A stretch of 64,000 nt of DNA. Origin: Owenia fusiformis. Taxonomy: Eukaryota > Annelida > Polychaeta > Sabellida > Oweniidae. The stretch covers positions 2,089,318-2,153,317 of the forward strand of contig CAIIXF020000012.1 in assembly GCA_903813345.2 (NCBI GenBank), read 5' to 3'. The position numbers were made by a program, and so were the translations under genes. The notes under the pieces are model-generated. The model was given only the letters and a program-made list of their open reading frames with translations, ran no database searches and was not told the DNA's origin. Shown here in pieces: positions 6,301 through 56,635 of this stretch. The number at the start of each line of letters is the position of its first letter. The first letter of the stretch is position 1.

Positions 6301-9300
6301 TTTTCCTTCTTTTGTTCACTATAGACCAGAATAAATTCATAGAAATCTCAGAGGCGGAATCAATCTCTTCTTGCATTTGTATTTGGTACTCGTATTCTGC
6401 ACGCCGAAACTCTCTCTGGAATTCTTTTTTCGCTTGTCTATATTTCCGGCATATCTCATTTTCATTATTCCTTGGTTTTCCTGCATCTTTCCAATCTTTC
6501 CAACTTGATTTATTTTTCTTAACTAGGTCTTTTAAGAGTGTTGACCAGTATGGCTTTAAATACCCTTTGAAACATGTTCGAGGAATAGTTGAAAAAGCAG
6601 CTCTCTTCAGAATCTGAGTTAATTTCTCAAAGAAAATGTCTAAATCTAGCTTTGACAGTCCGTCTTTAACACTGTTGATTTCATTATATAACTCTTCTAG
6701 TTTGGGATCCAAAAGAGTTCTATATGCAGATTTATTCTCCTCCGTTGCTTTATTCCAGGATAACTTACTTGTGATCTTTTCTTTTTCACCTTTTAGGTGT
6801 ACACTCTCATGAACAAGGGATAAATGAACACATATCGGTAGATGGTCTGACGTGTTGATTAGAGATTCCTCCATAATTGCTACTTTCGTGCATTTACTGA
6901 ATAGACTCGCAGATACTATACAGTGGTCTATATATGAATACCCAGTATATTGGCGGTGAAAAGAATACGTAGGACCAGTACATATTGGAGTAAGATCTGC
7001 TACCTTAAGACCTTGTCTAATGCACATGTTATTAAAGGCTATACCATTACAAGATGGCGGATACGCGCCTCTTACATTATGAATATTACCTAAATCTGAA
7101 TTAACATCGCCAATTATTAGAACTTCGCCGTCACTTTGTAACTGAATTACAATTTCCTCTAGAATATCTAACCATTCTCTAAAACTAGCTTTTACACATC
7201 CCTGGTAAGGTAGATAAACACATAGGACATATAGAGTTGTATCAGACAAACGTATTTTAATTCCCATTATACGCTCCATTTTGAAATTAGGCATCTTTTG
7301 CACAAAACTGCACATGGATTTTCTCCACATGATAGCAATACCCCCATTCCCTAGAGTGTACCCTTGATCAAAGGGATCAAGGGACTTACTACAACTCATG
7401 TCACATATGAATTCATTATTTACCTCTAAATGACTTTGCATTGAACTGTTTAACCAATGTTCGCTAATACATATTACATCATTTACATCAGTCAATTGCT
7501 TTAAGGAACGGTTTTGATGAAAATAAGCCATTCGCATTCCATCCACAAATTCTGATATTACTATTCATATCATTCATAATTATTAGACATATTTGTGTGC
7601 AGGTCTCTATAATGCACACGCTCGTATTCCTTGCTTGAGTATATAATATATATATATAAGTCATCATGATCAAGGTCTACATCAAACCTTGGGGCATTAT
7701 TATGGCCCCTACGTTTTACCCACTCCCTGCACTTAATCGGGTTTGGCCATGTTTGATCGAGTTGGGCACGGTGGGCAGATGAGATGGGCACAACTATTTT
7801 ACAGCCTACACTAAAACGTGACACTTTGTTATGTATGACGTAGCACTGCATAATACGTATGTTCATTGATGTGGCATGTGCAATTACCTGACGTTTAATG
7901 TCAGAATCACTTTCACCATCATGTATCTCAATATTTTCGACATAAAGCATGTAACCTTTCTCATGACTGACTCCACTTAGAGATCTTGTGAGTCCCTTTG
8001 GTATTAAGGCTTCCTTAGATGAGGCGTTGTTGGTATTAGAAGGCCGTTTTCTTCGTCGAACAACGTCCGCATATGTTTCATCTGTGGACGATGGTTGGCT
8101 GGCTCCTATAACCTCGATGCATCGAGGCGACGTAGTGTGGGGCTCCTTTGGTTGTTTCTCTATGGGTTTGCTGTTTTGTGTATTGTCTTGTCGGGAAAAT
8201 TCACTAGTTTTCCTTGTACCAGGTTCGCGGGGCTCTGGTGCGGAGAATAAAAACAACAGCTTAATCTTTTATGACATGACTGTGACCCGGTTTTGGCCAA
8301 TCATGCAGCATCAATCATGCAATCATGACAGTGATATACAGATATCCAATTCCACATCATTCAATATTTACGTATCATCTAGTGGGTTGTTTTAGCGCTG
8401 GAATATTGATTTTTAATTAAGATTTTTTAACTTAGAAGCGTATAAAAGTTCTAGTATGAATGAATTAGTATGTATCATTGTTTTAAATGTGACGCACCTA
8501 TTTTAATGTGCCGCCTATTCTAAAGAAAAGTTAATATAATTTCAATTTATTGAACAAATACTTCGCTCTACTGAGGTGAATACCCGTGCATCTTTCACAA
8601 ATGATATTCCACGAAGCCCTGGGGGCTAGTGAAATATCATTATCTTGTGAAAGAGTCACAGGTAGTATTCACCGAAAGTAATGTCTGATGTAATAAGAAA
8701 ACCAAAGTATTCATCGGAATAGACATGTTTATACTGTGAGAGAGCACCAATGCAATGCAATGCGACTGAATATGTTTGAATCACGAAGATGGCCGAAGAT
8801 GCTTCAAAGAAACCAATCAAATTCCTTGAAGCATCTTCAGCCATCTTCGTTAGAGCTAAAATCATCTTCGGCAATCTTCGGTTGCGATACAATCATCTTC
8901 GGCCATCTTCGTTAGTGGTAAAATCATCTTCGGCCATCTTCGTTAGTGGTAAAATCATCTTCGGCAATCATCGGTCGTGAGTCATCTACGTTATATATTT
9001 TATTATTAGATCACAGTTGCCACTGTAAAGAGTGACAGGGCGGATGCATTCCGTGCAGAGATTCCATACAGAATGGCAGAACCACCTTGGAACTTCAACA
9101 GAACAGAGCTGGATGGAACAACGGTAACCTAATAGTATATTACTATACTCTAATTGGTCAAATTGTATATTAATTTTCAAAAACTTCCTAGTAATTTTCA
9201 AAAACTTCCTAGTAATTTTCAAAAACTTCCTAGTAGTCAATTTTGAATAATATATATGAATATAATACAGAGTGATGTTGGTAATAAAATGCAGCACTGT

Positions 9301-12300
9301 TCAATTTTACCTATATATAAAGTAATGCAGTTTTTCATCAGCTTTAATCTTTCTTGTTGCAGAACTGGGGGCAGGTGAAATATCAGGTATTTAGAATTTA
9401 AGTATACAGGCCTGAGGGTGAACCGAAAACGTTCGTATTTTTCATTTTAAGATTCAAGTTTACTTATCTAATAAGACATTTGGTCTTTCACTCTTTGGCT
9501 CTTGGATTTACTAAGTAGATATTTTTAATATAGCAAAATAAAAAATATGAACGTTTTATTGAGTTACCTAATACTCTTAATTATGAATGTTGACGTTCCG
9601 TAATGTATGGACCATGAGTACTGGCTGTAAGGATGAAAAAATGACCGAGGCCCAAAGGCAATTTTTGTTTATTGCTACCTAATGTGTGTTTTATTAATTA
9701 TTTTGAATTCAGTTTGATTTTATAGAAATAGTTGCAAAATAATATATTATATATAAATCGGATATAAACAATTTAATACTTTATCTATTTTCTATAGGGG
9801 TCAGTATTTTCTCTGTTCTTGTACGACACTGTTTACCTGTACTGTCTTGCACTGAACTACACTTCCAGTATGGGAATGGATAACATGTCCGGGAAAATTA
9901 TGATGGACGTCGTTCCAAAGCTACAGTTTGATGGTATGTCATCCATGTGCCCCCAATCCACATACTTATGGTGTCTTAGAATCTGAAGTATTTCAGCAAT
10001 TTTGATTTGTCGAAAATGTTGTTGCCATAGCAACGACAAATGGCGCTACCTTTTCTTGCGGCCCAGCCCACATAGTAAGAGTGAAACCTTCATGTTTACC
10101 ATGGGTATGAAGAAATTTCTCCAAGCTTCTGTAGTTACTATAGATCATTCTGATTTTGGAAAACTAATAAAATCCTGGCTTTAATTTACAGGTATGAGTG
10201 GTCGGGTCATTATGGACGACCAGGCTGAGAGAGAGTCAGACTATTGGGTTTGGCATTTACCACCGCATAAGGATGAATATGAATACTACGCAGAGATCAA
10301 GAATACAAACAAGGAGGGGGAAGAGGTATATTTGATATGATACTGCGACCAATGTAACCCCATTCCAATAAGGGCAAACCACCAATAGAGGAATTTCTAT
10401 ATAGTCAAAAAGATTTAGGAGATTTGCACACAAAACCTTTAATGACTTACTATTCCTTCTTCCTTAATAACATATATATAAATTGGTCGCAGTATCATAT
10501 ATACATTCAGTGAAAAGTTTCTGCAATAATAACTTATACAGTTATGTCATTTAAATCATTTTCCACTACTTTTTCAACATTTCTAAAAAATAAAATATGG
10601 GCCAAATCTCGATTAAGTTTATGACGAATGTCCGCTCTGGAAGTTCAATATTTCTGTATGCTCTTAGAGTACTTTATACTGATATTATGTTTATGGTGGT
10701 CATGATTATCCTTGAAGCCCCTATTACTGTAGTTCCCTAGGAAAGTCGTAGTACCATAGAGTACACAAAGAATGGCGAACTTTTTGAACACACGTTTCTC
10801 TTAAACCAGACACCAAAAATTTCTGTTAGGTCTCTCAATATTGTAATTGTACAAAGGAAATTTTGGTTGATTTTAAAAAAGTATCTTGTTAATGAAATAA
10901 AAGGTTTTTCTTGATTTTTATCTATTTTGGGGGGATTTTGTTTTAATTTTTTGAATACTTTTTAAAATCAACCAAAAATTCCTTTGTATAACTATAATAT
11001 TGAGAGGTCTAAAAACATGTTGTATATGCTATTTTGTTCCAACAAGGTTCGAAAAGACATTTTATTTCATTCTCAAGAATTGGTAGAAAGGAGCAAAAAC
11101 AATTGCACTAAAAAACAAAAAAATGTTAACAATAACAGTTATATAAAATATTTCTAAATAATTTTTGCATTAAATCGTTGTCAATCAGTCAACATTACAG
11201 CAGGAGATCCAAGACGTCATTTCCATTGTTCTCTGCATATTTCGCGTAGTAATCTACGGTGATTAGCCCGCGCGATTTTCGCATGAATGAACGTCATGGT
11301 TGATGCACCCATTTTTACACGACGGTATCTCCCTCGTCTTTTATCGGTTTCCCACAAAATAAACGGTTTTGAAAAGCTTATATCAAGTAGTTTCAGACGG
11401 TCTTTCTCATTCTTTAATTTCATTCAAAGTCTGGTCTCAATAATCAAAATCGCAATTGTGATATTTTTATAGAAAACGCAAAAATGTGTACTGCTTTCAA
11501 GCCTTACGGATAAATCGTTAACGGCGGCCTTCACAAACAATTAGTTCAGCACTATTTAGCTCAAATCTAGACGATTTCAATGGTGTTATTCTTTTTTACC
11601 AACCCTGGGGGAGATGGGTTTCTGCCAATTTTTAGTGCGACCAAGTGTTTTTTAGAGCCATTTATTTCACCATTTAACGTCACATATTCCGGATTGTAGC
11701 GTGACTGAACTTTATTGGACGGATGTACCCATCTTTACACGATGATATCGCGCTCGTCTTTTATCGGTTTCCCACAAGGTAAACAGTTTTGAAAAACGTA
11801 TATCAAGTAGTTTCAGACGGTCTTTCTCATTTTTAAATTATATTCAAGGTCTGGTCTCAATAATCAAAATCGCAATTGTGATATTTTCATAGAAAACGCA
11901 AAAATGTGTACTGTTTTCAAGCCTTACGGATAAATCGTTAACGGCGGCCTTCACAAATAATTAATTCAGCACTATTTAGCTCAAATCTAGACGATTTCAA
12001 TGGTGTTATTCTTTTTTACCAACCCTGGGGGAGATGGGTTTCTGCCAATTTTTAGTGCAAGTGTCTTTTAGCCATTTATTTCATCATTTAACGTCACATA
12101 ATACCAGATTGTCGCGTGACTGAACTTCCTGGGAGATGCACCCATTTTTACATGATATTAGAGCACTCGTCTTTTATCGGTTTCCCACAAAGTAAACTGC
12201 ACTGCAAAGCTTATATTAAGAAATTTCAGAAGGTTATTCTCATTATCTTATCTAATATATACATTATATTGAAGGTAGAGTCTCCGCCATAATTAAAATC

Positions 12301-21300: not shown

Positions 21301-24300
21301 TTTTATCAAAAATTCACAAAGTTAGGAACAATTAAAAATGGCTGGGTGATTTGGGGCTCTACCGACGAAATCGAAATATCGGACTTTATGACGTCCCGGC
21401 GGAAGTAGAAATCGGCCTAACCGAAGCACATTTGCGGCTTGGATCTCCTGCTGATTACATAAAATACCATGTTTTTTTACAGAATGTTTTCAATGATTGG
21501 TTTTCTAAAAGAAAAACATTGTTGAATTCAGTTCTCCATATCGATACCTCTCCTTACTGGTATGTTTTAAGTTATACTGATTCACAGATTCAGACCTCAT
21601 ATTGTTAAATTTCAGAGAATACATGTGTTAAGCCCTGCGTTTTGGAGGACTCCTGACGGCCATCCTCCAAAGGACACACCCGACTGCGGATTCTTTACAG
21701 AGGCATGTCAAAAAAATGGACTTACAAGTAAGATTGGCCTCATTGCAACTGGCCCCTATTCGTCTATCTTTTTTAACATTTATTTCAGCATATTTACAAA
21801 AACATGCATATACATACAATTCCTACAAATACATAGAAAATTACTATGATATGCATTTGTGGATAAAAATCTAAATATTGATTTACCTTTGCATTTTTAT
21901 TAACACTATTTATGCTTGTTTATATTATATGCTATTTTTGATTTAAAATTTACATGTTCGTATTTACGGATTTCTTCTGACAAGATTGCATGGCCCTATC
22001 TCAAAGCCTGACTGATCTGATAGAATGGACTTTGTTGAACGGACTAAAAATGCCACATCTTACTTGCAACACAAACTCTTTATGATCGAAAAACTGATTT
22101 GATGTGATCTTATTTGTCTTTCATCTAGCTCATGAAATAGGAATTATCGTCGGGATTCTAGCTACGTTCGTACTTGTTGGTGCAATATCCACTATCTACT
22201 ACCTTTTTAGGTAAGAAGCTTAAACGTCTATGTAGCTGTACCTTACTAATAAAGAGACGTACAGACGTTCAGTAACTGCATTATACTTGATTTGATAGAA
22301 ATCATATTATAAATATCACAGTCAATCTGCAACAGTACAGTATGATACAGTTTTGGAAATGGTACTGTACGGTATCGTGAAATATGGTACCGTAGACTAA
22401 AACGGCACCGTACGGTATCGTGAACACTGTACGACACTATACTCCGACGGTACCGTACGTTACCATACTCTTAATCCACCGTATGGTACCGTGATTTTAG
22501 AGTGCGGATTGGGGGTGTATACTTAGTTCTTTGTCGATGTAAGTTCGATTTGCAATTCCCCTGATAAGCATTCCAAATGCATATTTTTTGAAAAGTACAT
22601 TTGCATAATACACTAGTAAGGTATATAGGGAAATGATTGACAGGGTGTTCCCAAATACATGTTTGCCAATCTAAATCTATGAAATTAGTTATTACGCTTT
22701 TAGCTCAAAATTTCAAAAATTGAGATTCAGTCTAGTATTTTTAATATTTTTTCTTCTTAACTCCCAACAATTAACTGGTAACCTTAATTTTAGAGCAATC
22801 AAGCTCTAATATAAAAAATGAAAAATACATTTGCGTAATAACCTAGTAAGGTTATAGGGAAATGATTGACAGGATGTTCCCAAATATATTTATGCCAATC
22901 TAAATCTATGAAATTTGTAATTGCGCTTTCAGCTCAAAATTACAAAATCGAGAGCCAGTCCTGTAATTTTAATCTCTTTTCTTCACTTCCAATTAATTGG
23001 TAACCTTAATTTTAGAGCAATCGAGCTCTAATTAATATATCTGGTATCCCCAAGTGCGTGTGTAAGTAAATGCATTTCTAAATGTAGTTTTAAAAACACT
23101 TTCAAAATAAAAACGATGCGTTCTGATGAAACATATTTTGCTACCAGACGACGTAAATTAGAAGGCCAACTCGAGTTCCTGTCATGGAAGGTTGACTTTG
23201 ATGAAATCTCGTTTGCCAAGGTGACCCACATGTCGAAGACGATGGCAGGGGCCGGTGGTAAAAGTGCCATTAAGTCAATTGGCGGAAGTACACATACAGC
23301 AGGCGTAGGTTTTTTATTGCATTATGAGTGCATTTGAATACAATAAAATTTAATTAGATAAATTGCTAAGGGCATCTGTCATGACCTTCTTGAATGACAT
23401 AGTCATGGAAAGTTCGAAAGATTTTGTCCCACATAAAGGGAAAAGCATTGCAATTCTGAATTGGTAGTTTTTATCATTGTCAGTAAACATGTTTATAAAT
23501 AAATAATAAATAAAAACAAAATGAATGAATTTATATATATGCAATGTTTACCATGACGTACATATGATAATATTGTGTTCCAGACATCAACGACTGTGTC
23601 GAGCAAGGACGATGAAGGCGTCACTGATACAGAAAAGACCTCAAAGGTTGTAGGTCTCTTTAAAGGGAATCTTGTGTTCATCAAATACATGAATGTTGGC
23701 GGAATGATCCTCGGGAAGAAAGACCACAAGGAGCTTAAATTGGTGAGCAAGGGAGCGACTAGATTATGGTTAAATTCTGAAATATTAGGAATAGTCTTTA
23801 AAGCTTTGAATGAAAATACTCACGAAATGACTTACATAAGCTACTTAAGAAATATAGACCGAAAAGCAGAGGTTATATCGTCGAATACACCCCGCAGGGC
23901 TAGGCACAAACGTTTTCTGTACCCCAAACGACCGAAGGGAGTGAGGGGTTCGAAAGCTTTTGTGCCTAGCCCCAAGGGATGTATTCGACGATATTACCCC
24001 TGCTCTGAGGTCTATATTACGATTCGAACATGAAAACTCACCAAATTGTTTCGAATATTCATCATGGTCCGCCATTACTACGACCCACCGTTATGACGTC
24101 ACACATTACACGTATTAACTGGGTTATTGATCTCGATTATAACCCAGCTGAAGCATTGACTTTGTTTACAGTTTATAGAAGGCGTGAATACAGTCATGTT
24201 CAATAATATACACTCCCCTCTATAAGTTATCAATTGATGACTTCCAGTTGCCAAACTTGGAGGGGAATGTTACCAATTTTCCAAAGCCTCTGATCGTAAG

Positions 24301-37000: not shown

Positions 37001-40000
37001 CAATGATATATCTATTAATCGCCTCTTTGAAATGTAATGTGAGTGTATATGAAATGTAAAAGTACAGGGTGGGCAATAAAAACGGCAACCTCCTCATATC
37101 TTTGTCATTTTAGGGAACTGAAAGGATTGGCATCGATATGGTGAATTGAATTCAACAATGTTTTTCTCATCAACCAATTATTGAAAACATTCTGTAAAAT
37201 ATACATTCTGTATTATATATATATGTAATTTTGACTGATTGACAACAATTTAATGCGAAAATTATTTATATATACTTTATATAACTGTTTTTGTTAACAT
37301 TTTTTTGTTTTTTAGTGCAATTGTTTTTAGTTCCTTTCTACCAATTCTTGAGAATTGAATAAAATGTCTTTCCGAACCGTGTTGGAACAAAATAGAATAT
37401 TATACAACATTTTTCTAGACCTCTCAATATTATAGTTACACAAAGGAAATTTGGTTTGATTTAACAAAAAGTATTCAAAAATAAGACAAAAACTCCCAAA
37501 ATAGAAATTTCATTAACAAGATACTTTTTTAAAATCAACCAATATTTCCTTTGTACAATTACAATATTGAGAGACCTAAACTGTTTCATTTCATTCCGAA
37601 CATATGATACCAAGAACAAAAGAAGTGTCTGGTGTGTTTTCTAAAACAAAATAGATAAAAAATTATATTTTTTTCAAATTATATTCAAAGTATGACCATT
37701 AAATTGACGATGTGTAAAATTTTCAGACTTTTTTGATGACTGGTTAAGAGAAACGTGTGTTCAAAAAGTTCACCATATCGATACCAATCCTTTAGCACCT
37801 TTGTGCATCATTCATTTTCTTAACAGCGTACTATATGTCATGAGCATCAGACTGATAGCCACAATGTTGCAGCACTTTAAACAGAGTGTACAATATTACC
37901 TCAGGACAATTGGAGACCATAAAGGGGAGAATTTAAGCCCAGCACTCAATGCATTGTAGCCGCTTCATTCCACTCAGGCGTTGTTTCCTAAACTGCGCGG
38001 TCATGCAAAGGTTTGGAAACAAAACCTTCATGGTATGATTCAGCAGACAATGCACTGAGTCCAGGGCTTAGATCCTTAAATCCAAGTTACCTTTCCTGAA
38101 GCGGTGGACGATATCGTTGAACTGTGGTGCCTACGCATGGTATATGACGAATGATCATACTTCATACGCCTGGTATAGTTCAGATATCAAAGCATTACTT
38201 CAACTATAAAGATATCGAAATCGACACTACCGTCCGCCATCTTAGATGCGAAAGTTACGGCCGTTACCTTCGCTTGATACCGACCAATGCCTCTTTGCAT
38301 TTCAGGTCCATTGGCAATAGGTGTCCCAGGTGAGATCAAAGGATACTGGGAAGCTTATAGTAATTTTGGGAGTGGTTCTGTTCCGTGGAAGGAATTGTTT
38401 GAGCCCACCATTAAAATGTGTAAAGAGGGCTTTCCAGTAGGCAAGAGTCTTGCCTCTGCAATCAGACAGTACCGAAATAGACTCCCTAATTATCCATCAA
38501 TCATGTAAGTATTTGGCTTCATTTTATCAAAAGGTTATCTCGATTGTTGCTTACAAATTGCTTGAGGTCAAGTTCAAGGTCATTTATAGAAACTTCGTAA
38601 AGTTAAGTTTTTCTTAAGTTGCACACTATTACATAATTAGCTGGTCCTTGGTTACAACAATAATTGATGAGGAATTATTAATTCACAAAGTTTATGTTTA
38701 TTTCAACCACCCTCCCCACTCCATTTCGATTAAAACATTTATGTATACACATATATAAAGTCAGCATGAACTTATCCGTAAAACGCTTGAACCATGACCA
38801 TAATTTTGAATCCTCAGGGAGATCATATGGAATAAAGAGGAGAATCGATTTCTTGAAGCGGGAGATATTATGAAGAGGGAGAAATTCGCTGAAACACTAG
38901 AGGTTATATCTGAAGACCCTCACTCATTTTATAATGGAACGTTAGCTACTAAGATAGCAGAGGAACTTAAAGATATGGGTAAGGAGGTTAAACTTAAGTG
39001 TATTTTAGAGACAATCCCTTTAAAATAATCGAAAGATCAATTAGAATACATCTCGTTATCATAATATCTTTAATATTACTTATTATTCCATAATAACATG
39101 TTTTCCCCGGGAAAATAACAGGGAATAAAATTGATATTCAAAAAATCCCGTATTGGATCCGGTATCAGCCAAAATTTAGTTTCAGAACTATCAGAAAATT
39201 TCATGAGACTTAATAGTGTGTTATTATGGTATATTATGATCCGTATTAGTATTATAGATTATTTCTATTTTGAAATTTGTCAATAAAAGTTGAAAATCTC
39301 ATTCGATCAATGAGATTGTATCATTAAATGCCATCATCATTGGGTGACGATATTCAAAGCAAGTTTAAGAAAAATACTATGGAATAAATAGGTTATTGAT
39401 GGTAGTGATGGAAAATGAATTTTCCTCGAGAAAATATGATATTGGCCTCGGAAAATATCATATTAACACTCGGACTGTCGCCCTCGGTCAATATGATATT
39501 TTCCTTGGTCAATATCATATTTTCCCTTGAAATAAAATTCATGTCCCATCCCTCCCATTAAATAACCTCTATTTATACACCTCATTTAGATACTGCAATA
39601 TGATTGGCGAGGCGAGGCGGTAGCCATATCCAGCTCCTAATCCAGTATTTGTATATTATTTCCCAGGTGCAATAATAACTGAGGAGGATTTAAAGAATTA
39701 TACCAGTGAAATAAAAGATCCATTAGCAATACACTTGAGCAATGGGAACATGACAGTATATGGAGTGAGGCCGCCATCGAGTGGTGTAGTTCTGCAATAT
39801 ATCATGGGTATCCTAGATGGATATAACTTCAGCTCAGAAAGTTTAAAAGACGATGAAACGTCCACTACAACATACCATCGTATAATAGAAGCTTTTAAAT
39901 TCGCATATGCTAAACGAACAGAATTGGGAGATGAGAATTTTCTACAACCAGGAATTGAAGATGTATGTACACCCCCGTTCATAAGTATGGCAACCTGAAG

Positions 40001-51500: not shown

Positions 51501-52817
51501 ACATGCAAATTACTAGTGACGTGTTAGTCTCACTTCAAGACCTTCTTGGACTATTTACTGGACTAACAACTTGCCAGTTGTTGTAGTAGCTCAAGTCGTT
51601 GAAGCAAAACTATATTGTCATTTTGTTTTAGGTAGCTATGAGGAATTTATGGTTTGGCGAGAATATAAAGACTTCTATAGATTATCCCAGGATACACCAT
51701 CAACTTTTACCAGATTATATAAGGCATGATGCATCATTTCCACCGGTAGGTACTGTAGTCCTAGTAAGTTGAGGCCATTCTCTATGAAATGAAAGTTTCG
51801 AAGTATATCATGGTTTTATTTTGATATCGTGTTTCCTTTGAAATAAGATTTGAATATGACTGACTAGTAACGTGGTTTTCCAACTAGGAAACGCGAATCG
51901 AGATTTCTGCGTTAGGATATATAGAGATTATCCTATATGAGGTTCAGGATATTGGGATTATCCCGAGGCAAATATAATATATTTGCCCGAGGGCCGCAGG
52001 TCCCGAGGGAAAATATGTTATATTGGCCAAGGGATAATCCCAATATCCGGAACCGACTATAGGATAATATGTTTATCCCATACCAATCTTTGTCATCTGG
52101 TTCACATTGTTAAATCGTGGAAATATTTTAGAAAATTCATGTCCAGTTTTGTTTTCTTGGCCGTGGGTGGATTTTCCTGTTCTCTCAAATATTCCCATAT
52201 TTATTTTCTCGAATTTTTGATTGATTAAGTGGATGCTCCTTCCCTTTTTAAACCATCAAACAGATTCCGATTGTCTGTGTTTTCTCCATTGTCGTTTACA
52301 GTCATAACGCGAACGTTACAAATTATGAACAAATATGCGAGCGACGATTATGACGTAGCGGGCAGATATACTATATCTGCCCGCTCGGAGCGGGACGTAA
52401 AGCTATATCTGCCCGCTGATGAAAATATAAGTTTTTACAAACTGACTTTATGTACCTGTAACACGTCCAAGTATGGGATAAAGACCATTTCGTCCAATCA
52501 TCGGAAGAGGTAATTTGATCAAATAATTGATAGAGGTCCAGCGTCGAGTAATACAGTTTCGAACTGAGTGTCAGGTAAACTAACGCCACGTTATTTTAAT
52601 TAGATTCACCGAAACGAAATGATTGTAATTACATACTATCTTTGTGTAAATTGTGTTAATGTTCCTTTTACAGAAACTCCTGAAGGGGCTTGCAGAGAAG
52701 GGACACACTATACGAGACCAGTCCGTCGGGGCAGTTGTATCTGGGATCACGCAGGAGGATGGATCCGTCTGGGCTAATTGTGACTACAGAAAAGATGGTG
52801 TCCCTGATGGTTACTAA
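45555..52817 (+). CDS. Gamma-glutamyltransferase, tandem copy 2 (600 aa, 11 coding exons)
   Basis: Exons: 45555-45659, 46375-46505, 46744-46841, 47294-47419, 47829-48027, 48376-48536, 49063-49358, 50418-50605, 51166-51406, 51632-51745, 52674-52817. They total 1803 bases, phases identical to copy 1; exon 2 is one codon longer. The signal anchor after MRAKW is unchanged. The Arg of REMAP, nucleophile Thr413 (TGTAHLSV), NDEMDDF, PLSSM and GAAGG are present, so it should be active. NDEMDDF is closer to the usual family form than the NNEMYDF of copy 1. It lies about 3 kb after copy 1 in the same direction, with its own promoter-like flank. Similar gene content makes dispersed co-expression or dosage effects possible but unproven. 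Confidence 0.95.
47099..47303 (+). repeat. Local duplication with a truncated exon 4 start in GGT2
   Basis: TTTTTCAGGAGGCCATTTCTT at about 47176-47196 copies the acceptor and first 14 bases of true exon 4 (47294), then reads into intron-like sequence. CTCTTAATCAACTG..ACATGCTACC also occurs twice. It makes a decoy acceptor about 110 bases upstream. Confidence 0.75.
47590..47720. repeat. Foldback in GGT2 intron 4
   Basis: TCTTCAAGACCCTGGA pairs with TCCAGGGTCTTGAAGCAAGA. Its relatives CTTCAAGACCTTCTTGGACT and AGTCGTTGAAGCAA occur in intron 9 (51529-51610). Confidence 0.7.
49707..50105. mobile_element. MITE with GATGCGAGTAG ends, copy B (GGT2 intron 7)
   Basis: GATGCGAGTAGGTAGTTACC at the left and TTATTTCTACTCGCAT at the right, inverted. 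It is the reverse-oriented relative of 17727-18155. Confidence 0.8.
50572..50850 (+). repeat. Tandem quadruplication of the GGT2 exon 8 end and splice donor
   Basis: Four units of about 71-77 bases each contain ACCAGCACCATCAACCTCTT followed by GTAAGTCAATCTGAA. Donor sites stand at 50606, 50677, 50748 and 50825. Only the first keeps the frame: skipping it reads TTG TAA at once. Confidence 0.92.
51924..52061. repeat. Palindromic element, GAGG-class (iv)
   Basis: Arms of about 63 bases pair (GATTATCCTATATGAGGTTC, GGATATTGGGATTATCCCGA). The centre is CCCGAGGGCCGCAGGTCCCG. In GGT2 intron 10. Confidence 0.85.
52360..52425. repeat. AGCGGGCAGATATA palindromes
   Basis: GCGGGCAGATATACTATATC plus TGCCCGCT is a perfect hairpin, followed by a second TATATCTGCCCGCT. 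It resembles the AGCGGGCAATA arms of the palindrome at 56466. Confidence 0.8.
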
Positions 52818-53389: not shown

Positions 53390-53545
53390 ATTCCTGAAAT
53401 TATTATACAAATAGTGACTGCCATTGAGGAAAATAGTGCAAAATATTTTTCCTGGGGGAATATTCTGTCCACAGGCACTGATATGTTCCCGAGGCTGCAG
53501 GCCAATGAGCATCTAGAATGGGTTATATAATAATCTAAAATAAGG
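53390..53545. repeat. Half palindrome, GAGG-class (v)
   Basis: CAAATAGTGACTGCCATTGA to the centre CCCGAGGCTGCAGGCC matches the left half of 55914-56102. The right arm is missing apart from an AT-rich end TTATATAATAAT. Confidence 0.75.
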
Positions 53546-55913: not shown

Positions 55914-56102
55914 GTAATATACAAATAGTGACTGCCATTGAGGGCAATAGTGTAAATTGTTTCCCCGAGGGAATATCCTCTACAATGTACTATTCCCGAA
56001 GCCGCAGGCTGAGTGAATAGTACATTGTAGAGGATATTCCCAAGGGGAAATCATTTACACTATTGCTCGAAATTAGGCAGTCACTATTTGTTTTATTATA
56101 TA
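55914..56102. repeat. Long palindrome, GAGG-class (vi), best-preserved copy
   Basis: Arms of about 80 bases pair along CAAATAGTGACTGCC, CAATAGTGTAAAT, TTTCCCC and GGAATATCCTCTACAATGTA. The centre is TTCCCGAAGCCGCAGGCTGA. Both ends run into AATATA/TATATA. Confidence 0.9.
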
Positions 56103-56446
56103 CCCTATACTGACTCTTGTCCCGTTTCCTCTGCGAAGGCCAAAAAGGCTTAGAAAGCCCCCTCCCCGGGTCCATTGTTAGCATTATAAGCTGTGACGTC
56201 ATCAGATGCTCAACAGAAATGTTTGCCTCTGAGACTCTCACTTGACAAATTCAATCGCGTTTAACACGCGGAATAGATTATCATAACACTTGAAATTACA
56301 CAGACGTATTGAGCTTAGGGAACTTTATACACGTTGCTTATACTGTATCGTTCACGCACGTCTGTCATGGTGAACGGAGTTGATTTGTGTTTGTGCTCAT
56401 CCTCCATTTTTCTGTTTTTCGTCTGCGCAGTGATGATGAGCAGACG

Positions 56447-56635
56447 TTTCCAAGGGTAATAGAGCTTGCAATTGTGACGTCAGCGGGCAATAGTTCAAAT
56501 GTATATTCCCGCTGACGTCACATTTGAGGGAATATAACTTTCCGAGGGAAATAGTAAATCTATTTCGGAACACGTGACTAGGTATTGACCAATCAGGATT
56601 AGTGTTACATATTGGGTATATAATAATACGAACTA
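56447..56635. repeat. Palindromic element, GAGG-class (vii)
   Basis: TGTGACGTCAGCGGGCAATA pairs with TATTCCCGCTGACGTCACA. GGGAATATAACTTTCCGAGG follows. The right flank ends GGGTATATAATAAT. The arm includes TGACGTCA, a CREB-type word, probably by chance. Confidence 0.75.

Follow-up and report, generated by a model that had tools for sequence, protein, structure and literature searches.

The palindromes of this 64-kb window (the whole stretch of DNA analysed) are probably the terminal hairpins of several short, non-autonomous, rolling-circle element families of the Helentron/Helitron2 type, with ends that appear to be coded by structure. The initial annotation had counted at least seven long hairpins and listed seven. 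Five of these, near 8575, 23851, 39385, 51924 and 55914, are long, imperfect hairpins with different arms, and represent five high-copy families, here named F7, F6, F5, F4 and F1, respectively. The other two do not stand as listed: the one at 53390 is a deletion derivative of a further family, F2, whose right arm is gone, and the one at 56447 is the interior of F1, falsely split off, as fetched copies show a single F1 of ~709 bp that takes in both 55914 and 56447 (Table 1).

Arms align among the copies of one family and differ from family to family. Other copies of the hairpins in the 498-Mb genome match at 97-99% for F1 (40 places scored, window included, of 649 first-look candidates), 97-99% for F4 (40 of 1800), 93-98% for F6 (40 of 1572), 89-92% for F5 (40 of 1199) and 81-86% for F7 (40 of 778), and it is from these identities that we conclude that arms are conserved inside families. 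The distance from ACAAATAG to TATATAATA in F1 is 705 bp in six of eleven copies, that of the window included; three others measure 694, 706 and 712 bp, and two are lengthened by inserts. F1, F2 and F4 to F7 each occur in several copies with arms of their own, and F2, ~482 bp long in the copies read, has both ends in common with F1. Related hairpins beyond the window are F3 (seen three times, at loci L008, L015 and, interrupted, L003), F4' (L069), F9 (twice, L030 and L073), and F8 (L066) and F11 (L077), seen once each. Many of the F5 matches listed end at the same two points, giving a solo hairpin of ~210 bp, and L042-L044 reach further; the solo hairpins could be one-ended copies.

Table 1. 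Features of the hairpin elements, in window positions.
Feature	Position	Strand	Remarks
F1 element, non-autonomous, ~709 bp	55918..56626	+	From fetched copies, start deduced from empty sites at nested copies of its relative F2; start T[A/G]TACAAATAG, end GGGTATATAATAA
F1 long terminal hairpin	55921..56091	+	GA strand is +
F1 tip	55995..56015	+	CCC-GA-AGCC-GCA-GGCT-GA-GTG
F1 GCA triloop	56004-56006	+	Tandem G.A: 55998-55999 with 56011-56012
F1 outer tandem G.A	55940..56070	+	GA 55940-55941 with GA 56069-56070; positions read from window letters
F1 middle GA/AA loop	55967-55968 with 56042-56043	+	Loops from fold of F1 copy L021
F1 subterminal repeat	56093..56105	+	TTATTATATACCC, directly beside hairpin
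F1 far-end inverted partner of subterminal repeat	56614..56626	+	GGGTATATAATAA
Right part of F1	56447..56620	+	Separate palindrome "56447" of the initial annotation
F4 element, 566 bp	51917..52482	+	Hairpin ~51919-52076, GCA tip
F4 subterminal repeat	52072-52083		TTTATCCCATAC; partner 52471-52482
F6 element, ~360 bp	~23845..24205	+	Hairpin 23851-24018
F6 tip			CCCC-GA-AC-GA-CC-GAA-GG-GA-GT-GA-GGGG in L047-L049; first GA is AA in window copy and L051
F6 subterminal repeat	24022-24033		ATTCGAACATGA; far-end partner intact in L048
F5 hairpin element	39367..39576	-	GA strand is -; tip C-GACA-G (GNNA)
F7 hairpin, old copy	8548..8680	+	Tip CCC-TGG-GGG
F2 deletion derivative	53404..53533	+	Keeps left arm, core and right end GGTTATATAATAA; lacks right arm and body

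A shared centre had been proposed for these hairpins. The centre is indeed their common feature, but as a sequence the core is mostly that of one family: the pattern CCCGAGGSCGCAGGYCSRAGG, with up to two mismatches, occurs 125 times in the genome (reversed control, 0), and the 20 places fetched from the 100 listed comprise 18 of F2 or relatives of F2, with F1 (L012) and F3 (L015) once each. Folding reveals a common centre that is structure more than sequence. By fold, the tips are C-GCA-G in F1, F2' and F4, C-GAA-G in F7, F8 and F3 copy L008, and C-GTA-G in F4'; by eye, where the program pairs the bases otherwise, they are T-GCA-G in F2, CC-GAA-GG in F6 and CT-GAA-GG in F11. The middle base of the loop varies within families (GCA in L015 and GAA in L008 for F3; GCA and GTA for F4). 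The F5 tip is C-GAYA-G, a GNNA loop, in 5 of 6 copies, and the F7 tip is CCC-GAA-GGG in four of five copies fetched elsewhere and CCC-GGA-GGG in L053. Beside the F1 tip, GA-GGG is found in L021-L030 (10/10, which overstates homogeneity, since the F1 copies used for hairpin identity were the top-scoring matches) and GA-AGG in L012. The TTG tip of F9 is an exception to the GNA/GNNA rule. According to an excerpt of PMC4686876, GNA and GNNA loops on G-C stems form extraordinarily stable DNA minihairpins, such as GCGAAGC (citing Hirao 1994 and Yoshizawa 1997); the F8 tip contains this very sequence and most other tips here are of the same kind, and the examples given there otherwise come from oligonucleotides and aptamers.

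The stems carry tandem G.A mismatches. Among the 2x2 loops on the GA strand of 11 family or subfamily hairpins, a set chosen partly because the motif had already been seen in its members, 12 of 22 are GA/GA, and all of these (12/12) have the context Y-GA-R. This is the context of stable sheared tandem G.A pairs in DNA. On the opposite strand of the same hairpins the count is 0 of 21, and in 15 hand-picked control hairpins from other repeats, both strands taken, 1 of 20 (two hairpins of families already covered, L069:529 and L033:775, were omitted, as was L065:6525). A.G makes up 50 of 85 mismatched positions on the GA strand of the 11 hairpins versus 43 of 206 in the controls (both strands), and A.G plus C.T 55 of 85 versus 77 of 206. 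None of the 15 controls has a C-G-closed GNA or GNNA tip. The motif has gaps: F3 is without GA/GA, F7 has an asymmetric one only, and F5 has one GA/GA loop in the window copy and none in L042.

Because the 11 hairpins had been partly chosen by motif, a motif-blind count followed, in which one rule was applied to 174 kb: the window plus 11 segments of 10 kb each, placed at arbitrary round coordinates. Hairpins were taken from an inverted-alignment scan, as a scan by local folding had let too much through. The 23 hairpins found contain 8 GA/GA among 47 2x2 loops (both strands), in 7 hairpins, against an expectation from base composition of 0.0087 x 47 = 0.41, and all eight are Y-GA-R, not every one being independent (window 51919 and L069:1479 are one family). 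One of the 7 hairpins, at window position 37928, is otherwise unlike this group. Tips of the form C[GNA/GNNA]G occur in 5 of the 23. The motif excess in hairpins is thus real and above chance. Fold energies did not consistently favour the GA strand, under parameters that may give no credit to sheared G.A, and were dropped as uninformative on strand choice.

Read on the GA strand, an element starts with the long hairpin, followed by a short repeat whose inverted copy forms the far end of the element. Such a repeat, 12-19 nt long and directly 3' of the hairpin, has its inverted far-end partner in nine of ten families. The repeats with a partner are TTATTATATACCC in F1 (13 nt, exact), ATTATTACCACC in F3 (12-13 nt), TTTATCCCATAC in F4 (12 nt), ATTCGAACATGA in F6 (12 nt, in L048) and TTATTATATCACT in F7 (13 nt, and 19 in one copy). 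F2 has the same pair as F1, TTATTATATACC/GGTATATAATAA, in copies with intact ends, the copy entered in the search having a changed end. F8 and F11 score 13/14 and F9 12/14, the last only just above the 10-11/14 given by sequences without a recognisable partner; the F4' copy, at 11/14, is no better than that background. No partner was found for F5 in the flank examined, nor for ATTCGAACATGA at the far end of the F6 copy in the window. On the GA strand, the hairpin is followed 3' by the body in 10/10 families (F1-F9 and F11), as judged for F5 from the longer copies L042-L044 and for F8 and F11 from one copy each. We attach no probability to this uniform polarity, because the families are not independent: F1, F2 and F7 start with TACAAATA and have a subterminal TTATTATAT, and F4, F8 and F11 share TTATCCCA. 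The frequent end TATATAATA of the initial annotation holds for F1 and F2 and nearly for F7 (GATATAATAA), but not for F3, F4, F6, F8, F9 or F11. Head-to-tail neighbours occur at L023 (F1) and L048 (F6).

Two F2 copies nested in F3 give empty sites by comparison with F3 copy L015, CAATAT^AGTG and GATAT^AGTA, the second diverged from L015 and aligned by eye. Nothing is duplicated or lost, so that a target duplication is absent at 2/2 sites. In none of the 16 F1/F2 copies that keep both ends do the two flanks have more than one base in common (one further copy, without an intact right end, was set aside), and a T follows the element on the GA strand in 13/16. Insertion is not regularly between T and T: T^T is found at 5/16 flanks, and T^A at both empty sites. 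Normal TIRs with a target duplication, which were to be expected of an ordinary MITE (DDE transposon) family, were not found, for neither empty site has a duplication and the repeats are asymmetric. A single MITE family was rejected on these grounds and on the existence of separate families with different arms, in keeping with the initial annotation, which had doubted one diverging family. The ends also differ from those of Helitron1 (5'-TC ... CTRR-3', A^T target), reading TTAT.. or TTTATC.. on one side and ..TTTGTAYA or ..CTATATAT on the other.

The GA-strand layout is that of Helitron2 and Helentrons seen from the other strand, as the accounts excerpted from PMC3627910 and PMC4067079 describe it. 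Helentrons and HINEs (DINE-1-like; excerpt of PMC4067079) have subterminal inverted repeats, a palindrome beyond the 3' repeat and no target duplication. Their ~11-15-nt repeats, the 3' one directly inside the terminal palindrome, have counterparts in nine of ten families here, and this genome contains Helitron_like_N plus PIF1 genes. Unlike the mite HINEs in the same excerpt, with palindromes of 5-10 bp, the present elements have hairpins of ~110-190 nt with tandem G.A steps; their target is not TT, and no tandem repeat was found in the window copies of F1, F4 or F6. Helitron2, in the excerpted part of PMC3627910, has asymmetric terminal inverted repeats, of which the 5' one is terminal and the 3' one directly precedes the hairpin, but there the 3' repeat is 20-30 nt from the end and here ~110-190 nt. 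A Helitron2-like 5' hairpin is likewise absent from the six families checked (F1, F3, F4, F6, F7 and F8), where the repeat has no self-complementary match longer than 5 nt within 80 nt.

A plainer reading of the same likeness is that these are HINE-type elements whose core was inherited from one or a few Helentron ends, the GA/GNA motif being a relic without a structural role. We regard this as unlikely, although the end sequences common to F1, F2 and F7 (TACAAATA, TTATTATAT) and to F4, F8 and F11 (TTATCCCA) speak for it, and uniform polarity would follow by descent. The loops follow a structural rule (GCA, GTA, GAA, GAYA) and do not vary like a decaying sequence, families differ in how many GA steps they have and where, and the exact GA/GA loops are Y-GA-R without exception in both the chosen (12/12) and the motif-blind (8/8) hairpins, all of which argues against a relic.

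Between F1 and F2, pairing has been kept while arms diverged, a case that is good for this comparison and weak elsewhere. Among 80 pairs compared between F1 and F2, 62 are unchanged, 10 have changed on both sides yet still pair, 2 are kept through G.T and 6 are unpaired in one family; pairs formed in either fold were taken, which leans towards pairing. The 10 double compensating changes compare with 2.6 expected under independence, and between F1 and F2' 10 were observed with 2.3 expected. In F7, there are 3 versus ~0.25 expected in two comparisons and 0 to 3 versus 0.7 to 2.1 in more divergent ones, and F3, F4 and F5 show 0-1 per comparison (F4/F4' trimmed by hand). GA steps stand at matching places in F1, F2 and F2'. 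Compensating mutations have been reported for Helitron2, in the excerpt of PMC3627910.

Under the favoured reading, that of terminal hairpins with structure-coded ends, the Rep/helicase of autonomous Helentrons would recognise the folded single strand. The loop and G.A steps might be the read-out and the arms a scaffold, and arm sequence could then drift as long as pairing and motif were kept. The G.A steps are T.C on the other strand and so could also mark the strand used. Reading by shape is suggested by analogy with three systems, each taken as excerpted from the papers cited. The 3' hairpin of Helraiser is a terminator; exchange of its stem with the loop kept left ~90% activity, and a change of loop and closing pair was about equal to deletion of the hairpin (PMC4778049). 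E. coli REPs, served by TnpA-REP, work in a like manner in that they need a conserved stem mismatch and one strand is processed, but with an IS200/IS605-like transposase, a GTAG motif and short hairpins (PMC8266576). Integron attC sites are sequence-poor, structure-conserved hairpins whose unpaired features choose the bottom strand; unlike the elements here, they serve bacterial site-specific recombination, and no homology is claimed (PMC2727003). Polarity is a difficulty for this reading: Helraiser moves the top strand according to an excerpt of PMC5876387, and under the customary naming of ends the GA strand of the present elements is the bottom strand. If the GA strand is the bottom strand in Helitron2 terms, the hairpin may act in the template strand, stopping strand displacement, or polarity may be opposite to convention.

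More tentatively, and against our own expectation on balance, a eukaryotic rolling-circle lineage could signal where it ends, and on which strand, through a code of folded DNA that is read by shape, with the coded strand opposite to that of Helraiser. The code would consist of a GNA or GNNA tip plus at least one Y-GA-R tandem sheared G.A step in a long stem. To our knowledge, end recognition by Helitron-type transposases is poorly understood, and among the open-access PMC matches listed none presents a GA/GNA hairpin as a transposon end. If shape is what is read, a single enzyme could mobilise many families whose ends are unlike one another; that would account for the spread of non-autonomous families without sequence-matched partners and give a simple, testable code. 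Such a code would free arm sequence to change and let unrelated-looking families share one machinery; it would also give GNA minihairpins and tandem G.A motifs a context in nature, and such elements could then be sought in other genomes without regard to sequence.

The hairpin might instead act in RNA, a transcribed hairpin with tandem G.A steps protecting or exporting the transcript or evading processing. Tandem G.A steps are stable in RNA too, and a constant strand polarity fits a sense transcript. The repeat geometry points to DNA transactions, however, and the exceptional stability of GNA/GNNA loops is described for DNA in the excerpt of PMC4686876, which makes a role in RNA improbable.

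In the view of the initial annotation, the arms are rewritten, for example through templated repair or foldback synthesis, while the core stays fixed. Palindrome instability does rewrite individual copies, as is seen in shortened F1/F2 derivatives. These were collected with a pattern whose gap is too short for full-length hairpins, so that its 35 matches are shortened elements; 14 loci were fetched (15 of the 35 matches), picked partly for rearranged-looking letters, and the proportions that follow are therefore no rate. The core is inverted in 5/14 (L084, L085, L087, L089 and L090), the GA beside the core is replaced by its complement TC in 2/14 (L086 and L088), the outer arm is an exact complement of the other arm in 1/14 (L097), and 6/14 are plain deletions. 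The locus L097 (C457:209610-209825), a near-perfect palindrome both of whose sides carry sequence of the F1 left end, lacks the F1 body on the side that was read and looks like a foldback product.

These inverted cores and recopied arms speak for continual rewriting of arms round a fixed core, but the derivatives were hand-picked through a pattern that selects shortened elements. As the main process, copy-by-copy rewriting was rejected: F1, F4, F5, F6 and F7 align along their arms, listed copies within F1, F4, F5 and F6 match at ~89-99%, and recopied arms lose the GA. In all three copies with a recopied arm (L086, L088 and L097), the G.A mismatches of that arm have been erased; the upkeep of the motif therefore cannot be due to foldback copying. 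We thus consider arm rewriting very improbable as an explanation of the families. The persistence of a motif built of mismatches in families that multiply suggests, rather, selection on the motif. Last, and least credible, arms homogenised by intrastrand mismatch repair that overlooked tandem G.A could account for A.G as the main mismatch on one strand (50/85), but this leaves constant polarity and GNA tips unexplained, and the GA steps stand at matching places in F1, F2 and F2' and are lost from recopied arms.

Helitron/Helentron machinery exists in this genome. Of 58 Helitron_like_N matches, 41 fall within open frames 1,491-3,377 codons long; 29 of these 41 frames lie on contigs C13 or higher, outside the 12 large contigs. 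A near-identical pair on C11 and C6 (99.3% over 8.2 kb) encodes Helitron_like_N and a PIF1 helicase (Pfam). Its C-terminus resembles an endonuclease by eye, Pfam listing none at E 0.01 in the C11 piece, and its end seems, by eye, to be a short ordinary hairpin. Pfam places an Exo_endo_phos domain ~3 kb downstream from a different Rep match (L080), with which it may not be continuous. The flanks of three RepHel loci contain no hairpin over the threshold, and four more flanks of 4-5.5 kb no hairpin with the GA motif; the ends may lie further out. An autonomous element with a GA hairpin or with shared ends was thus not found at the loci examined, where F11 is the sole GA hairpin and sits beyond the end of one RepHel copy; this is the chief weakness of the favoured reading. 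This F11 element, at ~6890-7250 of L077 (C11:29205001-29214500), adjoins the autonomous RepHel element and has the tip TTCAC-GA-GT-GA-CT-GAA-GG-GA-AC-GA-GTGAA. Downstream of giant RepHel frames at L058 and L060 (C1:21119500-21127500 and C6:36039300-36047300) are several kb of ~150-bp tandem repeats, which may be satellite arrays carried by large Helentrons.

The window holds other repeats. Two copies of an inverted-repeat element with 54-nt arms (AGGTCTCTCAATATTGTAATTG...) lie at 10826-11012 and 37416-37578; the copy folded has no GA/GA loop, and the element looks like a separate MITE. Repeated units like CGAAGATGGCCGAAGATG, in both orientations, adjoin F7 at 8783-8943. The longest inverted repeat of the window, at 554-1163, has 200-nt arms that are 85% complementary and 210 nt apart.
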